44,253 nt of DNA from a virus. Positions 7,757-32,662 of the stretch are shown in pieces. A program made the translations under genes and the position numbers. The DNA lies in IMG/VR virus record IMGVR_UViG_3300017779_000023, positions 1-44,253 of that record; one strand, written 5' to 3'. Every line of letters starts with the position of its first letter. Position 1 is the stretch's first letter. Below the pieces are notes generated by a model. The model ran no database searches. It was not told where the DNA came from and was given only the letters and a program-made list of their open reading frames with translations.

Positions 7757-8158
7757 TTAATTGTTTTTTCTTGGATCGTCCTTAGCGGGATTACCAGTGT
7801 TTATTTTTCCAGATCCACTTCGTTGTATTCTTGGTGGAGTTGTATTAGTAGTATTAGGTACAACCTTGTCACTACTTTTATTTTTATATATTGGTGTATA
7901 GTTATTATAGTTATAATACATGTGGTTATATGGATAATAGTTTGTTCTAGGATAACTTATATTATTATAATTATATATTGGCCTTATAACATCTATTGGA
8001 AGCTTTAAAGTGTCACCCTGTGACGTTATAGCTAAAACATGTGTTATTTGTGGCTTAGGTGTTTTATAAACCGTACAGCTACTTATAGCAACCAAAAACA
8101 TGAATAGCGCAAACATTATCATTATAGCTATTTTATCTTTTGGGTGTTCTAATTTCAT
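7757..8158 (-). CDS. Outer-membrane lipoprotein, Tyr/Asn-rich; o-spanin candidate
   Basis: The 133-residue protein has a lipoprotein signal: a basic N-terminus (MKLEHPKDK), a hydrophobic segment (IAIMIMFALFMFLVA) and the lipobox ISSC with C28 as the lipidated cysteine. The mature part is short, with a run rich in Tyr and Asn (residues 61-90, such as NYYPYNHMYYNYNNY) and a Thr/Pro/Gly/Lys-rich tail. It lies near the endolysin and the membrane coiled-coil genes, so an outer spanin is possible. The mature domain does not have the usual Pro-rich o-spanin look, so this is only a candidate. The start overlaps the upstream stop as ATGA at 8155-8158. Confidence 0.65.
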   Translation of the reverse strand: MKLEHPKDKIAIMIMFALFMFLVAISSCTVYKTPKPQITHVLAITSQGDTLKLPIDVIRPIYNYNNISYPRTNYYPYNHMYYNYNNYTPIYKNKSSDKVVPNTTNTTPPRIQRSGSGKINTGNPAKDDPRKNN

Positions 8159-8316
8159 TTCTTCATTTTATATGGTACAGCTTTATTTAAAGCTTGTCTT
8201 CTAGCTTCACAACCACAAGGTATATTTAAACCTTCTGATACTTTATCAACAACTGTTTTAATACCAGTTGCGCTTGTGAATTTATGTATTGTGTCTCCTA
8301 GTCCTCTTGATTTCAT
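8155..8316 (-). CDS. Small conserved protein with C-terminal CGC motif (53 aa)
   Basis: From the ATG at 8316 the product is 53 residues: MKSRGLGDTIHKFTSATGIK, a short helix (TVVDKVSEG), then IPCGCEARRQALNKAVPYK. The layout 'GLGDTI.KFT.ATGIK..VD...CGCE.R...LN...PY' recalls a small family found in Flavobacteriia and their phages, function unknown. The CGC motif might bind a metal, which is speculative. An in-frame ATG at 8361 would overlap the upstream gene by 41 bases. The 8316 start leaves a four-base gap after the upstream TAA and begins at the conserved part, so it is preferred. Confidence 0.65.
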   Translation of the reverse strand: MKSRGLGDTIHKFTSATGIKTVVDKVSEGLNIPCGCEARRQALNKAVPYKMKK

Positions 8317-8320
8317 AATA

Positions 8321-8569
8321 TTAACATTTCCATCTACGTCTAGCGGCTTTACCTCTTTCACCGGTCCAACCTTTTGATCTAGCGCAAAATGATTTTCTAC
8401 GTTTAGCAGCTTTACTACCAGGTTTTACTTTACCTGTTACAGCTGTTTTTAATTTACTACCAGGGTTTTTTCTTTTATATGCTGCTACACCCTTTTTGGT
8501 CATACCAGCACCTTCTTTAGTTGACCTAAAGTTTCTGTTTTTACCCTTTGTAGTTTTTCTTATTGCCAT
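8321..8569 (-). CDS. Small Lys/Arg-rich protein (82 aa), DUF6321-like
   Basis: The 82-residue protein is very basic: MAIRKTTKGKNRNFRSTKEG, then GAGMTKKGVAAYKRKNPGSK, then GSKAAKRRKSFCARSKGWTG and a basic tail ending RRRWKC. The 'G.T..G...Y....PGSKL..AVTG' block followed by 'KAAKRRKSFCAR' is the pattern I associate with DUF6321 phage proteins; this label is from memory. The basic composition suggests DNA or RNA binding, possibly a DNA-condensing or virion-internal protein. Its start overlaps the stop of the upstream mini-gene at one base (TAATG). It belongs to an array of eight similar tiny genes. Confidence 0.72.
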   Translation of the reverse strand: MAIRKTTKGKNRNFRSTKEGAGMTKKGVAAYKRKNPGSKLKTAVTGKVKPGSKAAKRRKSFCARSKGWTGERGKAARRRWKC

Positions 8570-8688
8570 TAGTATTTTCTTTTCTTTTTCTTTTTTAGCT
8601 TTTTAAAATCTAAGCCCGTGATTTTATTAAAAGGCGGAGCCATCCTAGCTATTTTCATTTGTTTAGCTGTTAGTTTTTTACCAGGCAT
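8569..8688 (-). CDS. Tiny Lys-rich protein (39 aa)
   Basis: The 39-residue ORF reads MPGKKLTAKQMKIARMAPPF followed by NKITGLDFKKLKKKKKRKY. The N-terminal half is an amphipathic helix, and the tail is almost entirely Lys/Arg. It begins two bases after the upstream mini-gene ends and finishes in a TAATG junction with the next gene, strong positional evidence for translation. Similar 'MPGKKLTAKQMKIA' proteins are recalled from marine phages, without a known function. Confidence 0.6.
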   Translation of the reverse strand: MPGKKLTAKQMKIARMAPPFNKITGLDFKKLKKKKKRKY

Positions 8689-8690
8689 AA

Positions 8691-8801
8691 TTATCTTTTT
8701 TTACGTTTAACTCTTTTTTTCTTACGGTTAGGATTACCTTTACCACCGTCTTTTTTACTTGCCCAAACCGCTTTGCGTTGAGCTGCACTTTTGTATCCCA
8801 T
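8691..8801 (-). CDS. Tiny Lys-rich protein (36 aa)
   Basis: The 36-residue ORF reads MGYKSAAQRKAVWASKKDGG followed by KGNPNRKKKRVKRKKR. The N-terminal AAQRKAVWASK helix resembles small marine-phage proteins with an 'SAAQRKAVWAS' signature, and the tail is poly-basic. It lies nine bases after the neighbouring 85-residue gene and two bases before the next. No function is known; nucleic-acid binding is suggested by charge only. Confidence 0.6.
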   Translation of the reverse strand: MGYKSAAQRKAVWASKKDGGKGNPNRKKKRVKRKKR

Positions 8802-8810
8802 AATTATAAT

Positions 8811-9068
8811 TTATTTTTCACCACATTTTTTACTAGGGTTACCAACTTGAACCCAGTTTTCTTTTTGAAACCAATCACGTAATGTTGCACCTTTTTTTCT
8901 AGCACCTTTAACATTTGATTTACTAGATCTTTTGTATCCACCGCCTTTAGCAGCTTTACGTTTAGCTCTAAGAACTTTAGCTCTTTCAGCTTTACTCATA
9001 GATCTAACTTTAGCAGCTGGTAAGCATACTTTTTTAGTTCCACCACCTTTTACTTTACTTTTTGGCAT
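8811..9068 (-). CDS. Small Lys-rich protein (85 aa) with KVCLPAAKVRSMS and RDWFQKE motifs
   Basis: The 85-residue protein has three visible blocks: MPKSKVKGGGTKKVCLPAAK followed by VRSMSKAERAKVL, a basic middle AKRKAAKGGGYKRSSKSNVK, and GARKKGATLRDWFQKENWVQ followed by VGNPSKKCGEK. The 'KGATLRDWF..E.WV.V' ending is the most distinctive part and recalls small phage proteins of unknown function. Two Cys residues, one near each end, might pair or bind metal. It overlaps the upstream 35-residue gene by 14 bases. It is one of the larger members of the tiny-gene array. Confidence 0.7.
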   Translation of the reverse strand: MPKSKVKGGGTKKVCLPAAKVRSMSKAERAKVLRAKRKAAKGGGYKRSSKSNVKGARKKGATLRDWFQKENWVQVGNPSKKCGEK

Positions 9069-9162
9069 TACTTTTAATTTTTTTACAACTACCAGGTGAA
9101 TATGGCTTTTTACCTTTAACAGGTGAGTAACCAGGCCAACATCTACCTTTTTTCTTTTTCAT
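9055..9162 (-). CDS. Tiny basic Cys-containing protein (35 aa)
   Basis: The 35-residue ORF reads MKKKKGRCWPGYSPVKGKKP followed by YSPGSCKKIKSNAKK. A 'CW.GY.PV.GKKPYS.GSC' core holds two cysteines 18 residues apart within a Pro/Gly/Lys-rich sequence, which could form a disulphide or a metal site. The start is joined to the upstream stop as TAATG at 9162 and its end overlaps the 85-residue gene by 14 bases. Similar short proteins are recalled from marine phages; function unknown. Confidence 0.62.
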   Translation of the reverse strand: MKKKKGRCWPGYSPVKGKKPYSPGSCKKIKSNAKK

Positions 9163-9299
9163 TACTTCTTTTTAATAGGCGTATGCCCACAACCTTTTTT
9201 CTTAAAAGCTAAATGCATTTCCATTGTTTTAGCGTTTTTAACGCTACCGTCTTTGCAATACATCTTGTGAGGTTTGAATTTTTTCTTATCTTTCATCAT
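9162..9299 (-). CDS. Tiny basic protein with Cys/His pattern (45 aa)
   Basis: The 45-residue ORF starts at tandem ATGs (9297-9299 and 9294-9296) and reads MMKDKKKFKPHKMYCKDGSV, KNAKTMEMHLAFKKKGCGHT, PIKKK. The residues H11, C15, H29, C36 and H39 could form a small zinc-binding site, but the spacing does not match a named finger. The stop joins the next start as TAATG. It has the same charge bias and packing as the rest of the array. Confidence 0.62.
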   Translation of the reverse strand: MMKDKKKFKPHKMYCKDGSVKNAKTMEMHLAFKKKGCGHTPIKKK

Positions 9300-9310
9300 A
9301 GCTTTAATAT

Positions 9311-9451
9311 TTATTTTTTCTTGCCACCTCCAAATTTAGCGGGTCCACCAGCTTTAGTACATCTTACACCCCAACCAGAGGCATAAGCACTAGGCCAAAC
9401 TTTAAATTTTCTTTTTGCTGCTGCTTTACAAGGTCCACTTATTTTTCCCAT
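9311..9451 (-). CDS. Tiny basic protein with PSAYASGW motif (46 aa), DUF5872-like
   Basis: The 46-residue ORF reads MGKISGPCKAAAKRKFKVWP, SAYASGWGVRCTKAGGPAKF, GGGKKK. The 'KFKVWPSAYASGW.V......GG' core is close to what I recall of DUF5872, small proteins of unknown function found in phages and environmental genomes; this label is from memory. It lies two bases downstream of the endolysin stop and is the first gene of the Lys-rich array in transcription order. Confidence 0.68.
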   Translation of the reverse strand: MGKISGPCKAAAKRKFKVWPSAYASGWGVRCTKAGGPAKFGGGKKK

Positions 9452-9453
9452 AA

Positions 9454-9918
9454 TTATATAACTTTATATTTAGTTTTATTATTTTCATCTCTGTATGCTT
9501 GTAAACACCTTTTTCTATTTTTATCAGGCGATACATAACTCACGTGCACCCAGTCTGGATTTTCATCGGTGCCAAATTCCCATATCATCTGATCGTAATC
9601 TAAATTTGCTTTGATCCAGTTATACATTTCTGCGTTACTAGCATTACCATATGTGTCATCAATATCAATTGCTTGACCATGACAATGTTGTGATTTAGAA
9701 CTTCCGCCAATAGCTTTATTAAGTTCAGGTCCACGATAAAACGAATTGATCTTTATAGGACCTCCTACGTGCATTCTAAGAGGTTCAAATACTTTTTCTG
9801 AAATATTTATCATATTAACTAAATGATCATCAGATGGATCATTTTTTAAACCAAGCCTTAAAGCGGTTGTGCTATACACACCTTCTTTATAACTAACGTG
9901 TTTACTTAGTTTATTCAT
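9454..9918 (-). CDS. Endolysin, M15-family peptidase
   Basis: The 154-residue protein is a zinc D-Ala-D-Ala carboxypeptidase/endopeptidase of the M15 type, expected to cut peptidoglycan peptides at lysis. The signature S76-x-H78-x-x-G81-x-A83-x-D85 (SQHCHGQAID) supplies two metal ligands, E114 in MIWEFG fits the catalytic glutamate, and H125 in WVHVSY supplies the third ligand. The segment KINSFYRGPELNKAIGGSS upstream matches the 'itSgyRs..lN..vGG...S' approach of the family. There is no signal peptide, so a holin is needed for access to the wall. It forms a TAATG junction with an 11-codon ORF upstream. Confidence 0.9.
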   Translation of the reverse strand: MNKLSKHVSYKEGVYSTTALRLGLKNDPSDDHLVNMINISEKVFEPLRMHVGGPIKINSFYRGPELNKAIGGSSKSQHCHGQAIDIDDTYGNASNAEMYNWIKANLDYDQMIWEFGTDENPDWVHVSYVSPDKNRKRCLQAYRDENNKTKYKVI

Positions 9919-12213: not shown

Positions 12214-15200
12214 TTACCTTTTCTTAAGTTTTTTTATTCTTGAAGGTGCTTTATTTCCTCTTCTTTTCTTTAAGTTTTTTATTCTAGAATTAGAAGATCT
12301 TGATTTTTCATATGGGTTAACGCCTACATCCCAAGTACTCCAACCTAAAGACATAGCTATTCTTTGCCAAGCAGCATGCTCGGTATCCATAGCTTCTTTT
12401 AAATTATTTATTTTTGATACAGCTCTATCTAACGGCACGTTAGTTGTAGCTGATATAACATTACCTATGGCTAAATAAGAAGGATTATCTAATCCCCAAC
12501 CATTATTTTTTATTTGTTTTTTGTTTAGCTTGTATGTTTGAGCCGCACTATATAATTTTCTTAGTTTACTACCAATAGGTGGAGATATGTTAGCCGCCTC
12601 TATAATAGTATAAGCATGATCAGCTGATCTTTTATTTTCTTGTTCTAAAAACTTCATGATAACATTTTTACCTGTAGAAGCAACCGCGCCATATATACCA
12701 CTTCCTCTTAGTATAGTATCAGCCATACTATTTGCTGTTCTTAATTTTTTAGCATCCCAATTTAAATCTTCTTCATCTTCACCACCAAACAACAACCCAA
12801 ACAAAGCGTTTTGTAAGGAAGTAAACATAAAGTTTTGTATAGCCCCATAATAAGCTATTTTAGACACATTAGTTTTCCAATCACCTCTACCAGCTACTAG
12901 ATTTTTAAATGACTTTTTAATTTCTCTAGTATACTGCATTGGTGTATTTTGAAAAGCTAGTATTAATCTACCTAATGGACCTGCTTGTTGCATTGATATT
13001 CTATCAGGTCTTGCTGACTGCTGGTTTCTTTCTGTTATTTCTCTAAAATCTGTAAAAGCTTTTTTCTCAGCAGCTTGTTGATCCAAACCTTCTTTTAAAT
13101 ATTTATTTAATCTATTTCTATAGAAAGTCGCACCACCAGAAGCAATAGCAAAGCTATCAGCTATTTGCGTAGGTAAAAAACCTTTTTTAAGTAAATAAGA
13201 TATAGCTGCATTAACTTTGTTTTTAGAGTTAGCAACAGCACTAGCTATTTCAGCTTCTTGTATATCACTTTGTAGACCTGATCTTCTTTGCTTTAAAAAG
13301 TCAGAGTTAAATATTCTACTAAAGTCTTTCCAGTATTGTGGTTGATTAGCAAAAGCAGCACCGGCTTTTAATGGGTTGTTGTCACTCCAGTTAACATAGT
13401 TTATACTAGATATCGTTTGTAATATTGCCGATCTACTATTAAAAAACATTATAGCGCCAACAGAGTTGTTGGTCCAATTCATAAAACCGTTGACCAATCT
13501 GTTCTGTCCAAAGTTTCTATTAGTACCGTTTTCCATACGATATAATATGTCATCTAAAGCTTCTCTGAATCTAGTACCATATATAGCCTCTATTTTATTC
13601 ATATTCTTCTTAGAGAATATAACATCTTTATTTGCTTTCCAGTCTTTTAAATATCTAGCTCTACTTACTGTATTGCTTATATCGTTCATATCGCTGATTA
13701 AATTACCAGCAACCCATGAATCAGTAGGTTTTAAATAACCTGATTTAATTTTGGTAACCTTAGATACTTTATCGGCAAACTCTTTTAAACTAATATCACT
13801 ATTAACTATTTTCTTTAATTCTTTTAAATCAGTTTTAGATATACCTGGAATAGTGTGTCCAGCTTTATCATATAAATAAGCTCTTATAGCTTGATCATAA
13901 CTAAAGTTATTATAATTAGTTTTCTTACCTAATAGCTTGTTTACATCTTTGTATTGTTTACGCAAAGCCCTAAAGTCATTAGCCATAGTTTGCCTAGCGT
14001 TGTTTATATCCGCTGTGCCCCTAGCAAATGGTTTAAATAAATTTTTATTAAACCACTCCATTTGTTTATCACCTTGTTTACCTTTACCTAAAAAAGAATA
14101 TATTAAGCCTTCAAAGTCTTCAGCTGAAGGTGGTAAAAAGAATTTATATTTACCTTTACCCTCGCCTAAGCTTCTAGCAGCTGCATCAGAATATGTTTTA
14201 AAGCTTAATGTACCTGTTGTTTGTTCTATTATGTCATTAAAATCTTTATCTAGTGCTTTGCTAGATTTAGCTATAGCTTGTTGAACATCTGACTTAACAT
14301 CGATAACACTTAAAACATCTTGCACGGCTTTAACGTTTTTATACGCGTCATCAGCAAAATAAAAATCATTATAACCATCTACGGCCTTACTTAACACCCA
14401 ACTTGCTTTAGCTTGTGGTGTACCATCTTCTAAACCAGTTATATTTTTTATAGGTATATCTAAACCTAAACCTTTTAAAAACTTTTGTATGGCTGGTGCT
14501 GACGCTTGTGGTCTAGCTGTTAATATAAATATATCTTTGTTACCAAACTTTCCTTGACGTTTTTGTGCAAGTTCAAACAACGGTCCTTTTGTTCCACCAA
14601 TAACTTCATTAAAATCACTAAAATCAAACTCAGTAACTTTATCTGCTATTTGTTCTGCTGTAGCTGCAAATTCAGTAGCATTTAATTCTATAGTGCTACC
14701 ATCTTTCATTTTAGCCCTAACTTTGCTTTTTGTTTTAGCAAGTGTATCATCAAAGTCAAACACACTAATACCTTTTCTTAGTTTATTACCTTGTCTAGCT
14801 ACAGACGCTGCTTGATCTAATAAATCAAACTCATTAAGCTGTTGATCTATTGTAGATTTACTTGACAACACCATGTTTTCGACAGCCGCTTGCTCTTGTT
14901 GTTTTGATCTTTGTTTAAAGTCCTCTAGTTGTTTACCAGCTAAGTTATCTATCATCATGTCATACTTAGATTTACCAGTAGTAAAATCATAAGTTGCTTT
15001 AGCTAGTGGTATATCATACATAAACCTCATATCACCAAGTGGACTATTTTTACCTAATATTTTATCTAAGTTATTAAAGTTTTTTGTAGGTCCTAGTGAC
15101 TGTTCAAAACCTTTTCTAGTAGTATGAAAGTCTTGCTCAAATGTGCCATTATATAAAGACATAGTAGTTAGTGCAGATACAGTACTGCTGTCAACAACAT

Positions 15201-18200
15201 GCTCACCTTTTATAGCAAAGTTTTGTGGACCATCTATTAAGTATACAGAAGTAAAAGGAGCTAAAGCTCTATCAGACATTACTTCGTTAGTATTAGCTTG
15301 TTTATCTCTAAAAACATACTCAATAGCGTTATCTCTATCAGGCGTACTATCAACCCATCGTTGTATAGAAGAGTTAATAGCTAAATCAAAGTTTTGTAAA
15401 GAGTTCATAACACCTTGACCTTCTGTTTCAGCTTTTAAAAAGTTGTTTACTCTTTTTATCTTTTGTGCCCTACTGATATTTTCTCCTGCTATTTTGTTTA
15501 TAAAACCTATTTCATTTGGTCCTAGTTTTTTAGAGTTAGCAGGTTCAAAGTTATCTATACCTCCATCAAAAAACTTTTTATAATATTTTTTTAATGCTGG
15601 ATCTGTTAAATCTTTATATGAAGGCGCATTACGTAGTCTATCAATAAACTCTTGTTTAAAGTTGTTACCTAAACCTCTTGCGTCAAATTTAAAAAAGCTT
15701 GTTATAAAAGCGCCCTCTGTTTTACCGCGTTTAGATTTTTGTAATTTTAATAATTCTTTTGGTAACAAACCTTTATCTATCATGTCAAATAAATAAGTTT
15801 CAACATGATCTTCAATAACATCTTGACCTTCTTGTGTTATTTCTGTTGAATTAAGCCAATACGTTTGTAATGATTTTATTTTGTTTAAAAATGGTAGATT
15901 ACTTAATACAATCTTTTTATATGCAGCTCCTTGTTTAACAGCTGCAGGTATATTTTTAATTAAAGCATTTTGTATTACGTTACCTACTATATCACTTTCT
16001 AAAGTACCATCAATAAAGTTTTGTAATACAATAGCTTGCTCTATACCCTCATAACCTAAATCAGTTAAAGCGCTAGTCATTATATCACCATTACTACCTT
16101 TTGAAAACTTAACGTTTGGATCTCTATTTATTTGTTTTGATATTATAGCTATATCATTTTCTTGTGACTGTATGCCTAATAGCTCGTTTATTTGTTCTCT
16201 TTTAGCTAAAACATCAGGTGATTGCACAACTTCCATTGTAGCATCAAACGCAAGCTCTACACCTATTTCATTAGCTAAAGCATCTTTTCTAGTACCTTTT
16301 TTTGATGGAGCTACATCTTCACCTAAGTAAAAATCTAAAAACTGTTTATCAGTAGGCGTCTTCTTTTCGTACAACGTAGGACCTGACAATCTGTTCACAT
16401 CTTTAGGTAGTAAACCTTTAGCCACGGCATCATCAACTTCTGTAGGACTTAAATTTCTTTTTACTTCTTTAGTAAATATTCTATTTTCAGGGCTAGCTGT
16501 TCTTTCAAATCTAACTAAGGTAGATATTGGTAAATTATCTACTATACTTTTTTTGTTTTTATTTAAAAAATTTTTATAGTTTTCTCTAGTACCCATCAAT
16601 TTAGCAATAGGTGTTTTTAATTCTACTCTATATCTTTTTGTTAGTTCTTTTACAAATTGTTTATTGTTTACCTCTGGTAGTCTAGTTCCAAATGTTTTTT
16701 GTACAGCATTTTTTACTTTAGTAACAAGTTCTTGTCCTATGCCTAGTTGTCTTCTAAATTTAGACCTAGTAGGACTTGTAACATCGGGTTGACTAGACGT
16801 GTCCGCAACTTGTTTAGCACCGGCAGATTCTGTAACGTCTTGCTCAAAGGCAGCTTTAGTTGCTGCTGTACCTTTTTTAAATACGTTACCAATTTTGTTT
16901 TTAAGTTGAGAGTTTATCCAACCTGATAAACTATCATTTTTACTAGGATCAAATCTTCTTATATGTGGTACTAACTCTGCTATTGTTGATGCTATAAAAT
17001 CTTCTTGTGAAAAACCAGGAGGCTTGTCAACAGGTATTTTACTTTTAATTAAACCATCAAGTAATCCATTGCTATATAAATCAGATATTACTTTTTCTGA
17101 TTCAAAAACACCAGGTCTACCCATGTTGTTTATATCGTCTTCAATACTTTTAGAAGATTTAGTTGTAACTTTACCACTTGAATCTCTTACTTCTATATCA
17201 GCAAGCTCACCACCTATTTTAGCACCTTCTTTTATAGTAGCTAACAAACCTTTACTAAACTTACCTTTCTCTACACTTTTGTTAAAATCTTTTATAAAGT
17301 TATATACATCCTTACCTGTATTAAATTTACTTTTAACACCTATGCTACTTAATATGTTTCTTTTTAAATTACCTAATTGCTTAAACATACCCTCTTGCTG
17401 TGCTTCATAAGGTATATAACCTTGAGTTATAGCATCGGAAAAAGCTGTTAACATTTCTTCTGCTCTAACGTTTTTAGGGTTATCTCTATATTGATTAAGC
17501 CTTTGTACTATATAGCTATTTTCACCTAACAACTTAGGGTCTATTTTAACTAACTCACTAGCTAAACCCGCGGCTAGCTGTTGTGTAGCGGCTGGATTAT
17601 CTTTTATAGTAGATAATAAAGCACCGTGTAGTAACTCGTGCTGAGCTACTGTAATTGCTTTTTCTTTTTTAGCTACATCTTCATTTATAACTATTTCTTG
17701 TCTACCGTCAGGATATTGTACTATAAATCCTTGATCAGTAGACTGTTTCATTTTTATTTTTTTCTTAGGATCTTTTATGTCTTTATTTAGATCTTTTATT
17801 TTTTGTTTAACAGTTTTGCTATTTTCTTTACTAAAACCTATATTTAAATCATCTGCTAGCTTTTGAGCACCTTCCATAGTACGTCTAGATATTTCTTCTC
17901 TACCAGCTGTAATATCACTATCAGCTATACGTTGATCTAGTTCTTTTATTTGATTATCTATTTTTACTGTTGTAGCTGGATCTTTATCTATTTTTTGTCT
18001 TAATAAAGCTTGCTTTTGTCTTATTAAATCTATTTGTTGAGCTGTCACCGTTTCAGGTGATACGTTAATTGCTTTTAATATATCAGCGCCATACTCAATA
18101 CCTTGATCTAAATCAGCCACAACTTTTTTCCACTTATCTTTTCTAGCTTTAGTTCTAGCTCTATCAAATTTTGTTTGCGCAGCAAGTCTTTGTTCTTTTA

Positions 18201-20145
18201 AAGCTTCTAAAACTCTAGCACCGTCTATTCTATATGCATTAAATACAGCCTCTCTTGTTTGTTTAATATCACCAGATATACCAAATGGTGCGAATACACC
18301 TGATAAAGCTAGTGTAGCAGCCGCTGTCTCTTCTATTACTTGACCGTTCATTATATCAAGATCCATATTTTTACCTACAGATATTTTTGCTATATCACCA
18401 AAACCAACATCTAATAATTCTTCGCCAAATTCAGCAACTGGTCTTGCAAAAAAGTTCATTGCAGCTGTTTTAATACCTTGTTTAGTAGCGGCACTTTTTA
18501 AGTTTTGTACTAAAGTACCCATTGTTGCTTTTCCAGCGGCACCAAAAAACAAATTAGCATCAGGCATGATTGCTTGACTTAAACCAGTACCAAAAGATTT
18601 TATTGTAGAATATATAGCAGCCTTACTATCATCAAGCCCCATCTCTTGACCTTCAAAATAATTATCTATAGCTGTCATTTTAAATGCAGCTTTCATACCG
18701 TTAAAAGTACCTTGTGTTAGTGGGGTGTTTCTACCAAATAGCTTTACAGCATCTTTGAAATTACCTTTACGCATAGCCGCTATAACACCTATAGTAAAAG
18801 GTAACATTTGAGCCGTGGTCTTAGCAGCGTTTTTACCACCAAAACCATCGCTAAAATCTAATACATATTCTTCACCTTCAGCCACACCTAAAGCGTTATT
18901 ATTGCTTACATACTTTTTATATAGATCATTTAAGTAGTCGGTACCAGTATAATAATCAACATCTTCGCTAGCTTCTGTTCTACCTCCAAATAAGCCTCTT
19001 GCACCTGATATATGAGTATCCATTATATTCGCTAACCAAAGAGACGTACCACCTGTAAAATCTATAGCTACAGTACCTAATTCATCAATAAAAGTACCTA
19101 TTATATCTCCACTTTGTCTTACAAAACTATCGCTTTCTATATTTCTTTGAGTCCACTCCTTAAAATCATCTGTCATTTCAAAGTTATTAGCAAAAACTCC
19201 TTCAGCTATATTAAACTTATACTCTTGAGCTAGATCGTTTCTTTGATCTTCGTATTTTTGTTTTAAATTATTTCTTTCAGTTTCTGATAATTTACTAAAA
19301 TCAATATCATTTATTTCTTCGCTAAGCATTTTTAGCCTACGTTTTAATACTTTACTCTTAGCTTCTGATAATATAGCTTCTTTACTATCTTTACTGCCAG
19401 ATAAAGAAACTAAATCATCATTATAAGCTAATTTTTCTAGTTGTTTGTTTGTTAGAGTGTTAAGTAATTCACTTTGTATTTCTTCGTCAATACTAATTTT
19501 TTCGTCTTGTGGCACGAAACCAAAAGTTAAAAATCCAGATGTGTTTTGTTTTTTTGCTGTGGTTAAGTTATCGAACGCTAACTTAGTTTTTTTATATGAA
19601 GAGTTGTTAATTAACTGTTGGTATTCGTAATTATTTTTTAATGAGTTGTCATATTCAGCTTGAACTTTGTCTTCAAGTTCTTGACCTTGTAAATAAAAAT
19701 TTCCTGATTTTTCTTGATTACTATAAAAATTTCTAGCAAATCCTGATTGTCTTTCAGCTTTTGCTATAGATTCATTTTCTAGATTTTTCTGTTCGTTATA
19801 CGTGTTTATTTTACTAGTAGCCAAACCATCTTCTATTTGTTTTAGACGTTTGTCTATTTCTTGTATTTTACCAACAGCCATAGGTGGCGTTTTTTTCTTT
19901 TGTTCAAGAAGATCTTGATATTCTTTGTTGTTGGTTAGTTTTATTCTATTAGTAAATACGTCAAAATCTTCTTGTGTAAATTCATCTGAATGTTGCTGCT
20001 CTACATCTGGTTCACTATTTGGATTTTCAAACTGTATACCTTGACCGCCAGAAACTTGATTATCAAACTCCCTCATTTTATCTGCTATCTCACTAGGTTT
20101 TAAACCTTGATCTATGAGATATCGCATATATTGCTGTCTATTCAT
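12214..20145 (-). CDS. Giant polyvalent virion protein (2643 aa) with HEXXH and HAD-like motifs
   Basis: This one gene fills 18% of the window. The N-terminal 350 residues are charged and helical. Around residues 800-850 lies HELLH (836-840) in ITVAQHELLHGALLST, a zinc-metallopeptidase signature. Near 1065 is RFDPSKNDSLSGWINSQLKN, a helix pattern common in phage polyvalent proteins. Residues about 1790-1960 form a HAD-like hydrolase: motif I FDFDDT (D1797, D1799), ILTARP near 1874-1879 and FADD at 1930-1933. The C-terminal third (about 2225-2520) is Ala-rich and amphipathic (NSRSAILQTISSINYVNWSD; LGRLILAFQNTPMQYTREI), as in large internal virion proteins that enter the host with DNA. Adjacent ejection proteins support delivery. 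Substrates of both enzymatic domains are unknown. Confidence 0.85.
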   Translation of the reverse strand: MNRQQYMRYLIDQGLKPSEIADKMREFDNQVSGGQGIQFENPNSEPDVEQQHSDEFTQEDFDVFTNRIKLTNNKEYQDLLEQKKKTPPMAVGKIQEIDKRLKQIEDGLATSKINTYNEQKNLENESIAKAERQSGFARNFYSNQEKSGNFYLQGQELEDKVQAEYDNSLKNNYEYQQLINNSSYKKTKLAFDNLTTAKKQNTSGFLTFGFVPQDEKISIDEEIQSELLNTLTNKQLEKLAYNDDLVSLSGSKDSKEAILSEAKSKVLKRRLKMLSEEINDIDFSKLSETERNNLKQKYEDQRNDLAQEYKFNIAEGVFANNFEMTDDFKEWTQRNIESDSFVRQSGDIIGTFIDELGTVAIDFTGGTSLWLANIMDTHISGARGLFGGRTEASEDVDYYTGTDYLNDLYKKYVSNNNALGVAEGEEYVLDFSDGFGGKNAAKTTAQMLPFTIGVIAAMRKGNFKDAVKLFGRNTPLTQGTFNGMKAAFKMTAIDNYFEGQEMGLDDSKAAIYSTIKSFGTGLSQAIMPDANLFFGAAGKATMGTLVQNLKSAATKQGIKTAAMNFFARPVAEFGEELLDVGFGDIAKISVGKNMDLDIMNGQVIEETAAATLALSGVFAPFGISGDIKQTREAVFNAYRIDGARVLEALKEQRLAAQTKFDRARTKARKDKWKKVVADLDQGIEYGADILKAINVSPETVTAQQIDLIRQKQALLRQKIDKDPATTVKIDNQIKELDQRIADSDITAGREEISRRTMEGAQKLADDLNIGFSKENSKTVKQKIKDLNKDIKDPKKKIKMKQSTDQGFIVQYPDGRQEIVINEDVAKKEKAITVAQHELLHGALLSTIKDNPAATQQLAAGLASELVKIDPKLLGENSYIVQRLNQYRDNPKNVRAEEMLTAFSDAITQGYIPYEAQQEGMFKQLGNLKRNILSSIGVKSKFNTGKDVYNFIKDFNKSVEKGKFSKGLLATIKEGAKIGGELADIEVRDSSGKVTTKSSKSIEDDINNMGRPGVFESEKVISDLYSNGLLDGLIKSKIPVDKPPGFSQEDFIASTIAELVPHIRRFDPSKNDSLSGWINSQLKNKIGNVFKKGTAATKAAFEQDVTESAGAKQVADTSSQPDVTSPTRSKFRRQLGIGQELVTKVKNAVQKTFGTRLPEVNNKQFVKELTKRYRVELKTPIAKLMGTRENYKNFLNKNKKSIVDNLPISTLVRFERTASPENRIFTKEVKRNLSPTEVDDAVAKGLLPKDVNRLSGPTLYEKKTPTDKQFLDFYLGEDVAPSKKGTRKDALANEIGVELAFDATMEVVQSPDVLAKREQINELLGIQSQENDIAIISKQINRDPNVKFSKGSNGDIMTSALTDLGYEGIEQAIVLQNFIDGTLESDIVGNVIQNALIKNIPAAVKQGAAYKKIVLSNLPFLNKIKSLQTYWLNSTEITQEGQDVIEDHVETYLFDMIDKGLLPKELLKLQKSKRGKTEGAFITSFFKFDARGLGNNFKQEFIDRLRNAPSYKDLTDPALKKYYKKFFDGGIDNFEPANSKKLGPNEIGFINKIAGENISRAQKIKRVNNFLKAETEGQGVMNSLQNFDLAINSSIQRWVDSTPDRDNAIEYVFRDKQANTNEVMSDRALAPFTSVYLIDGPQNFAIKGEHVVDSSTVSALTTMSLYNGTFEQDFHTTRKGFEQSLGPTKNFNNLDKILGKNSPLGDMRFMYDIPLAKATYDFTTGKSKYDMMIDNLAGKQLEDFKQRSKQQEQAAVENMVLSSKSTIDQQLNEFDLLDQAASVARQGNKLRKGISVFDFDDTLAKTKSKVRAKMKDGSTIELNATEFAATAEQIADKVTEFDFSDFNEVIGGTKGPLFELAQKRQGKFGNKDIFILTARPQASAPAIQKFLKGLGLDIPIKNITGLEDGTPQAKASWVLSKAVDGYNDFYFADDAYKNVKAVQDVLSVIDVKSDVQQAIAKSSKALDKDFNDIIEQTTGTLSFKTYSDAAARSLGEGKGKYKFFLPPSAEDFEGLIYSFLGKGKQGDKQMEWFNKNLFKPFARGTADINNARQTMANDFRALRKQYKDVNKLLGKKTNYNNFSYDQAIRAYLYDKAGHTIPGISKTDLKELKKIVNSDISLKEFADKVSKVTKIKSGYLKPTDSWVAGNLISDMNDISNTVSRARYLKDWKANKDVIFSKKNMNKIEAIYGTRFREALDDILYRMENGTNRNFGQNRLVNGFMNWTNNSVGAIMFFNSRSAILQTISSINYVNWSDNNPLKAGAAFANQPQYWKDFSRIFNSDFLKQRRSGLQSDIQEAEIASAVANSKNKVNAAISYLLKKGFLPTQIADSFAIASGGATFYRNRLNKYLKEGLDQQAAEKKAFTDFREITERNQQSARPDRISMQQAGPLGRLILAFQNTPMQYTREIKKSFKNLVAGRGDWKTNVSKIAYYGAIQNFMFTSLQNALFGLLFGGEDEEDLNWDAKKLRTANSMADTILRGSGIYGAVASTGKNVIMKFLEQENKRSADHAYTIIEAANISPPIGSKLRKLYSAAQTYKLNKKQIKNNGWGLDNPSYLAIGNVISATTNVPLDRAVSKINNLKEAMDTEHAAWQRIAMSLGWSTWDVGVNPYEKSRSSNSRIKNLKKRRGNKAPSRIKKLKKR

Positions 20146-31204: not shown

Positions 31205-32662
31205 TTATCTGAATAATACGAAATTATTCGCAGCTTGAACAACAAGACATCTTTCAGATAGATAATGTACTTCCATAGCGTCTAATGCAGAAGTAGCTGC
31301 TCCCACAGATCCAGTGATCCATGATTTCATCTTTCTGTCATCAGCTTGTGAAGCTCTATATCTAACGTGTAAGAATGGTCTATTAATATTCTTGCCCATA
31401 CCTTGATCGTAAACGTTTGTAGTTCCAGCAGGAATTAAAACACCTTCGACTTTTCCAGCAGTGGCACCATCGTTAATTAACCCTCTTGTAGATTTGTTGT
31501 TTAAGTATTTCCAGTCAGATTTGTAGAAGTCATAAGAACCTCTTCTGAAACCAGAGAAACCTAAATTTAAAGCCATATCTTCAGAGTTGTTAAATACACC
31601 ATAGTGAGTTTGACCAGCAGTATGTGAGTTAACACCAGCTAACATATTATCAAATGCTAAATTAGCAGATCTATCTAAGAAAAGCATATTTTCTTCAATA
31701 GCACCTTGCTTGTCTAATTCACCAAGTAATACGTCAAAGTCAGCTAGATCATCAGCAGCGCCATCGAACATGCCACTATCTGAAACCATACCTCTACTTT
31801 CGATAGCTTCAAAAAGACCTTCAGTACCAGTACCAGTTACTACAGAGTTAGCGTTTTTGCTAACGCCTTCAACAACTGACATTTCTAAGTAATCTTCAAA
31901 TCTTTTTCTTGTATCACCAGCAGATTTTAAATACCATAAGTATCCACCTTGTCCTGATTCACCAGAAACTTCGATCCAACCAATTTGAGAAGCATCAGAT
32001 CCTGAAACAACATATTTATCTTTAATGATAATAGGTTTGTTGCTAAAAGATTTGAACTCAGCTTCAACTGATTGGTCCATAGCTCCAGTTCCTTTTCCAA
32101 AGTCAGAACCGTACACAAAGAATTTAATAGTAGCTGTGTTTTCAGCAGCTATACCAGCTAAATCTTTAAATGTAGCAGCGCCAAAAGGTTGTAACGTTAG
32201 CGTGTTTGTTGCAGCTTCTATACCTGCAATACATTGCGCTTTTGTAACAACTTTATCAGAACCTGTTACGATTTGACAAACAACTGTTTGTCCTTTTCTT
32301 ACCGCGTGAGCAATTGAATCACCTGATTGATTATCAATATCTTTAATTGAGTCAGCAGTAATCACACCACTTGTAGTGTGTATTGTAGCTTTATAAGCTA
32401 AATGAAGTCTACCTTGCTCAGACCAAACAACTTGGTCAGCAGTCATAGCTTCTTCTGCACCGATCATACCTAAGAATCCGCTGATAGATCTGTCTCCATA
32501 TCTTTCAACTTCAGCTTCGTATAAATCAGGCAGGTATTGTTGAGCCCATCCTTGTCCAGCAGTACTAGCTAAATCTAAATAAGATCCAGTAGTAATGTTT
32601 TTAGCGTAGTTTGGGGATACCAAACCACCGACAGCAGGGCCAGTAAAGTTTACACTTGCCAT
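31205..32662 (-). CDS. Major capsid protein
   Basis: The 485-residue protein is called the major capsid protein from its place after portal and scaffold, its length, its own terminator and its sequence character. It begins MASVNFTGPAVGGLVSPNYA, continues with LPDLYEAEVERYGDRSISGF, a long-helix segment typical of large HK97-fold capsids, and has Gly/Ala-rich beta regions (GSDASQIGWIEVSGESGQGG) and a C-terminal strand (RCLVVQAANNFVLFR). By eye its coding sequence is richer in G/C third positions than its neighbours, as expected for a highly expressed gene; this was not measured. No direct family match was confirmed. Confidence 0.85.
   Translation of the reverse strand: MASVNFTGPAVGGLVSPNYAKNITTGSYLDLASTAGQGWAQQYLPDLYEAEVERYGDRSISGFLGMIGAEEAMTADQVVWSEQGRLHLAYKATIHTTSGVITADSIKDIDNQSGDSIAHAVRKGQTVVCQIVTGSDKVVTKAQCIAGIEAATNTLTLQPFGAATFKDLAGIAAENTATIKFFVYGSDFGKGTGAMDQSVEAEFKSFSNKPIIIKDKYVVSGSDASQIGWIEVSGESGQGGYLWYLKSAGDTRKRFEDYLEMSVVEGVSKNANSVVTGTGTEGLFEAIESRGMVSDSGMFDGAADDLADFDVLLGELDKQGAIEENMLFLDRSANLAFDNMLAGVNSHTAGQTHYGVFNNSEDMALNLGFSGFRRGSYDFYKSDWKYLNNKSTRGLINDGATAGKVEGVLIPAGTTNVYDQGMGKNINRPFLHVRYRASQADDRKMKSWITGSVGAATSALDAMEVHYLSERCLVVQAANNFVLFR

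Follow-up and report, generated by a model that had tools for sequence, protein, structure and literature searches.

An array of eight basic mini-genes in a marine flavobacterial phage probably encodes T4-internal-protein-like capsid peptides, at least three of them related to modules of one long cyanophage protein

The internal proteins (IPs) of phage T4 are basic and dispensable in the laboratory; a head contains ~300 copies of each, and they show DNA binding at low salt (PMC9026906). T4 gp21 cleaves after L/I-x-E (PMC9026906). Here, we describe an array of eight small basic genes at positions 8155-9451 of the virus record IMGVR_UViG_3300017779_000023 (44,253 bases, hereafter the window), whose terminase and portal have relatives in phages of Flavobacteriales. 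We propose, with a probability of roughly 0.62, that the array encodes T4-IP-like capsid-internal basic peptides, strung together as a polyprotein in cyanophages and encoded by separate mini-genes here. In the window phage, the products of the set probably reside inside the capsid together with the DNA, a location that we infer.

All eight open reading frames (ORFs), previously listed in an earlier note on this DNA, were found with ATG starts on the minus strand (8155-8316, 8321-8569, 8569-8688, 8691-8801, 8811-9068, 9055-9162, 9162-9299, and 9311-9451). Their products measure 53, 82, 39, 36, 85, 35, 45, and 46 amino acids (aa) in that order, and the array lies immediately downstream of an M15 endolysin gene, as the note had placed it. 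Two pairs, at 9162 and 8569, are joined by TAATG, fewer than the several claimed, and the genes meeting at the 9055/9068 boundary overlap by 14 nucleotides (nt). The products are indeed strongly basic, with isoelectric points of 9.9-12.0 and net charges of +7 to +27, totaling +123 over 421 aa; the 53-aa product is less basic than the other members. Nearly all small ORFs of the window that reach a net positive charge of 0.2 or more per residue belong to the array. The reported cysteine content also holds, with exactly two Cys, both conserved, in six of the eight products and none in those of 8569-8688 and 8691-8801.

The head-to-tail chain of eight ORFs of at least 35 aa is far beyond chance: the opposite strand gives one, and the longest chain in 2000 dinucleotide shuffles is three. 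Homologues gathered from 160 related loci gave ratios of non-synonymous to synonymous polymorphism (pN/pS), pooled against the window over partly redundant loci, some from overlapping metagenome samples, of 0.24 (46-aa), 0.20 (45-aa), 0.36 (35-aa), 0.37 (85-aa), 0.50 (36-aa), 0.29 (39-aa, six relatives), 0.27 (82-aa, 132 relatives), and 0.34 (53-aa), with the endolysin as control at 0.24. Protein-level selection, the check that the earlier note had proposed, is therefore seen across the array (0.20-0.50), and all eight ORFs are real genes under purifying selection. Chance ORFs in Lys-codon-rich, AT-rich DNA would fit the small size of the products and the few library matches for five of the eight; given the constraint on every gene, the retention of the genes under rearrangement, and shuffled chains that never exceed three, we assign this explanation practically no weight, and the selection and shuffle tests together rule out a spurious-ORF reading. 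The description of most ORFs as lying below usual gene-calling cutoffs was overstated, with the shortest at 108 nt and similar-sized homologues annotated in other phages; the default minimum of Prodigal is 90 nt. The products are not copies of one another, as had been noted, with no pair of the eight similar above z = 3, which rules out tandem duplication of one gene.

Array order and content differ even between relatives with endolysins 75-86% identical. With genes denoted by product length, and 133 standing for the neighboring lipoprotein-like gene, locus L025 reads endolysin-46-45-85-35-53-36-39-82-133, locus L064 reads endolysin-133-82-(53)-46-35-36-45-85, and in L076 most of the genes precede the endolysin, lying upstream of it. 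Each gene is conserved despite this rearrangement, which strongly indicates that every one of them acts as a functional unit. Several units also occur fused: 35+85 in five loci (L048, L036, L041, L002, and L083), 36+46 in three (L027, L083, and L002), 45 with a 46-like module in L038, and 85+82 in L098. As the eight products are no copies of each other, such fusions point to a task in common. The eight unrelated families form an interchangeable set.

Family searches place three of the products. The 82-aa product (8321-8569) is a member of PF19846 (DUF6321; 44.5 bits against a cut-off of 28.5, E 2.4e-11). The 46-aa peptide (9311-9451), which carries a WPSAYASG motif and two Cys, matches phrog_27331 (E 2.7e-7) and resembles one half of PF19197 (DUF5872), aligning to positions 10-40 of 116 at 15.6 bits, below the membership cut-off of 27.5. 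The other half corresponds to the 85-aa protein (8811-9068), which gives no PF19197 match in the Pfam search, matches phrog_23735 in two stretches (E 1.3e-4), and by hhalign yields two matches that do not overlap and come in swapped order (E 4e-6 and 1e-5); an unpermuted relative, P-SCSP2 gp22, matches PF19197 positions 55-112 (E 5e-14). As judged by sequence alignment, the 85-aa protein is related by natural circular permutation to a DUF5872-half protein found in SAR11 phages and cyanophages. This permuted arrangement is typical of endolysin-linked flavophage loci and occurs in 40 ORFs of the collected loci, versus seven with the ordinary order. By these profile matches, the 46-aa and 85-aa products are related to DUF5872 halves, yet they fall below the family cut-off and are not classed as members.

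Among the remaining peptides, the basic 45-aa peptide (9162-9299) keeps H11, C15, H29, C37, and H39 in nearly all relatives, a set that may form a miniature zinc site. The basic 35-aa peptide (9055-9162) carries a CWPGY...C motif and the basic 36-aa peptide (8691-8801) a KSAAQRKAVWAS motif, while the basic 39-aa peptide (8569-8688) has a SAR11-phage homologue. These four products have no family match in Pfam, PHROGs, or NCBIfam, and the NCBIfam search returned no match above cut-off. The 53-aa peptide (8155-8316), with an invariant CGC, matches phrog_32048 (E 9.8e-4), and a homologue lies upstream of the terminase large subunit gene (TerL) in Nonlabens phage P12024S. A PDB sequence search with the 82-aa and 53-aa products and the P-SSM2 protein PSSM2_123 found no match, and, among the papers searched, DUF6321 is mentioned in none and DUF5872 appears in one gene table, that of an algal giant virus.

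Cyanomyoviruses encode relatives of several of these products as one long protein. PSSM2_123 (271 aa) holds 85-like, 35-like, 46-like, and DUF6321 modules, with pairwise z scores against the P-SSM2 protein of 9.5 for the 46-aa product, 10.1 for the 82-aa product, and 3.0 and 4.7 for the two halves of the 85-aa product. The cyanomyovirus protein thus strings together the same modules, namely DUF6321 and the two DUF5872 halves. Fused proteins range from 271 aa in P-SSM2 through 427 in S-B43, 495 in S-SM1, and 517 in S-SCSM1 to 609 in S-SRM01. PSSM2_123 has matches in 480 of 50,697 phage records, and in 264 of these the match spans 80% or more of the protein; at least 590 viral-contig stretches encode DUF6321 relatives. 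The N-terminal part of the protein of S-SRM01, a reservoir cyanophage, (L166 3323-5152) also holds a DUF5661 domain (E 1e-13).

Investigation of the fused proteins revealed that protease-like sites cluster just before each module. The test set of 119 fused viral-contig ORFs and four from isolates was reduced to 21 non-redundant sequences, because some loci share overlapping metagenome samples and are not independent. A hydrophobic-x-E motif followed by a small residue is 3.3 times commoner within the 30 residues ahead of a module start than in the rest of the sequence, with decoy motifs carrying D, K, Q, T, N, or R at P1 giving ratios of 0-1.3. To allow for the Glu-rich linkers, local shuffling of residues was used, with the decoy motifs and neighboring positions as further controls: 48 sites were present in 78 such stretches, against 16.0 ± 3.8 in local shuffles (maximum 33 of 5000), and the share of hydrophobic residues is 48% at P3, 12% at P2, and 24% at P4. 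A composition artefact was rejected, since the P3 signal persisted through these controls. The wider motif was picked after viewing a few sequences, some of them in the test set; the published L/I-x-E motif by itself also passes (48 against 24.7 ± 4.4). The linkers at these sites vary between proteins (for example, before the 46-like module, EEVVTE|A, GELVDE|G, EVELNE|A, and GFEMQE|A), so that the motif is kept and the linker is not.

Cutting at these sites is predicted to release S-SCSM1 pieces of 91 aa (+15), 65 aa (+7), 32 aa (+7), and 81 aa (+15), separated by acidic linkers of 44 aa (-10) and 69 aa (-12). The predicted pieces resemble the 85-, 46-, 35-, and 82-aa products of the window in size. 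An L/I-x-E site is absent from seven of the eight window peptides, which would not need cutting. A prohead protease is encoded by S-SCSM1, S-SZBM1, and S-CREM2 and is itself found in their virions.

In several unrelated phages, the genomic surroundings of the homologues include head and packaging genes. In P-SCSP2, HTVC142P, HTVC119P, and Ran EXVC014P, comprising T7-like SAR11 phages (pelagiphages) and a cyanopodovirus, the mini-genes lie between the scaffold and major capsid protein (MCP) genes; they follow directly after MCP in P-SCSP1i and after MCP and the cement protein in DSL-LC04. The gene of the fused protein occupies the interval between the terminase small subunit gene (TerS) and TerL in S-N03, S-CREM2, S-SM1, and S-SZBM1; in S-SRM01 it lies downstream of TerS, in P-SSM2 directly upstream of that gene, and it is upstream of TerL in S-B43, S-TIP28, and S-SCSM1. 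Homologues stand near M15 or lysozyme genes in the window, pelagiphages, S-CRES3, CRP-207, and MW202753. Linkage to lysis genes is not conserved, with several phages having their homologues in head or terminase modules. Overall, the modules are common to phages of SAR11, cyanobacteria, and Bacteroidota.

Published proteomes connect the fused form with the virion. S-CREM2 gp137 (108049-109521), which has a C-terminal DUF6321, was detected by four unique peptides in CsCl-purified virions (PMC10665884 Table 3). S-SCSM1 ORF29 (517 aa), which holds all four modules, is labeled 'virion protein' in record MK867354.2, and mass spectrometry identified 45 virion proteins in this phage (PMC9602691). A viral structure library searched with models of the 82-aa and 85-aa products returned mostly other DUF6321 proteins, with one entry named 'Virion protein [S-SCSM1]'. 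In the passages searched, the P-SCSP1u cryo-EM and P-SSP7 purification papers make no mention of these small proteins. S-CREM2 gp136 (L170 1496-2209) and P-SSM2 PSSM2_125 (L177 3661-5652) are low-complexity, Lys-rich proteins whose genes adjoin TerS; gp136 was also detected in virions of S-CREM2 and is a further candidate for an internal head protein.

In the mechanism that we propose, the late-region mini-genes would encode small basic modules that co-assemble into the prohead and then stay inside the head alongside the DNA, as functional counterparts of T4 internal proteins. The cyanophage polypeptide would be cut in the prohead into module-sized basic peptides, and the flavophage would reach the same end product through separate module genes. 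The peptides would associate with the DNA in the head and may exit together with it when the phage infects, and their paired cysteines may form disulfides once the virion meets an oxidizing medium. The polyprotein form would belong to T4-like cyanophages and the freely shuffled mini-gene arrays to flavobacterial, SAR11, and T7-like marine phages. That marine tailed phages thereby possess two delivery routes for a widespread class of capsid-internal basic modules, giving each phage an exchangeable 'protamine kit' for the DNA that it packages, is a tentative extension to which we give slightly less than even odds. Of the functions suggested in the earlier note, the virion-internal one is favored by the cyanophage virion proteomes, the head-gene locations, and the protease-like sites; no support was found for ribosome or membrane targeting, and ribosomal-protein mimicry was rejected, with L20 as the sole match at chance level (E 0.65).

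Several observations weigh against a capsid-internal role. The virion detections concern DUF6321-containing fused cyanophage proteins rather than the separate-gene form, and in S-CREM2 gp137, DUF6321 is the only module and coverage is 4.1%, so the detected peptides may lie outside it. S-SZBM1_192, a DUF6321 protein, is absent from the 30 virion proteins detected in its phage (PMC9146016 Table 1), a non-detection to be read in the light of how easily Lys/Arg-rich peptides are missed with trypsin. Cleavage of the fused proteins is a prediction, and association of the peptides with DNA is plausible from charge alone. Cyanophage counterparts were seen for the 82-aa, 46-aa, and 85-aa products and, by eye, for the 35-aa product, which is likened to the CWxGY-type module; none is shown for the 36-, 39-, and 45-aa products. 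AlphaFold models of the 82-aa (predicted local distance difference test, pLDDT, 78) and 85-aa (pLDDT 61) products are of modest confidence and have no fold match in the PDB. Finally, the array lies beside the endolysin and not beside head genes in the window and in many pelagiphages.

Packaging in the head would also suit peptides whose main job comes after ejection, as host-takeover or counter-defense effectors with content shuffled by an arms race. The strong variation in order and content among close relatives fits accessory effectors, and T4 IPI, which acts against the GmrSD endonuclease, provides a precedent (PMC9958956); we nevertheless regard this role as unlikely, given the purifying selection on all eight genes and the sharing of modules by phages of SAR11, cyanobacteria, and Bacteroidota; this sharing argues for a host-independent role. 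Late cytoplasmic helpers of assembly or packaging, such as scaffold or terminase co-factors that stay outside the mature virion, would account for genes adjoining scaffold, capsid, and terminase genes and for the undetected S-SZBM1_192, but the detection of DUF6321 proteins in S-CREM2 and S-SCSM1 virions makes this account rather improbable.

Proximity to M15 or lysozyme genes, as in the window and the other phages listed above, is what cationic lysis-associated peptides acting with the neighboring endolysin would lead one to expect. We consider such a function very improbable: the homologues of T7-like phages and cyanomyoviruses are found in head or terminase modules and not near lysis genes, and the sequences contain no hydrophobic or signal segment. 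On gene location elsewhere and the lack of hydrophobic segments, lysis or membrane peptides were rejected as candidates.

Directly upstream of the array, the M15 endolysin (9454-9918, minus strand) matches PF08291 (E 2.6e-14) and the phrog_894 'endolysin' (E 1e-28). Downstream, a minus-strand gene (7757-8158) that shares an ATGA overlap with the last array gene (8155-8316) encodes a 133-aa lipoprotein-like protein with a hydrophobic N-terminus ending in ISSC; it was found at 54 of the 80 endolysin loci, in relatives often comes right after the M15 gene, and is a candidate lysis lipoprotein resembling an outer spanin. The virion structural protein at 31205-32662 is probably the MCP, and relatives sharing the same endolysin also carry it at 54-68% identity on contigs of 69-71 kb, so the window probably represents about two thirds of a genome. 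A single 2643-aa ORF of the late region (12214-20145, minus strand) probably encodes a large virion or ejection protein. On the plus strand, a 45-aa basic ORF (2537-2674) containing ..KKKRPGVHSKNRN..YRGQGR resembles, by eye, HTVC028P gp25 and HTVC010P gp39, both of which sit in small-gene clusters near the endolysins of those phages.

These modules count among the unnamed proteins that are common in marine phages, and the proposal gives them a concrete, testable role inside the head. Should it hold, several families would gain an annotation together, phage head proteins would be seen to switch between polyprotein and mini-gene, and structural biologists would have candidates for the internal proteins that cryo-EM hardly resolves.

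Comparison with known systems defines both the likeness and its extent. The 82-aa product stands alone as a DUF6321 protein (PF19846; PHROGs 4689, 727, 3477, and 10346), a domain that forms the C-terminal module of long cyanomyovirus proteins, and the DUF5872-like region (PF19197) is spread over two genes in the window, with its second half circularly permuted. The T4-GC 119 proteins (P-SSM2 PSSM2_123 and S-SM1 SSM1_115) and S-SCSM1 ORF29 lie in the terminase or structural gene region and combine the same 85-like, 46-like, 35-like, and DUF6321 modules in a single chain that also has linkers and prohead-protease-like sites, whereas the window encodes them as separate genes. No IP family appears among the Pfam, PHROGs, and NCBIfam matches, and since no sequence homology of the array to T4 internal proteins was found, we describe it as working like them rather than as a member of their family. 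T4 IPI, IPII, IPIII, and the gp67/gp68 fragments are small, basic, cut after L/I-x-E, and DNA-binding at low salt (PMC9026906, PMC9958956); the window peptides differ in having no propeptide of their own and in forming a set of eight, six of them with paired Cys.

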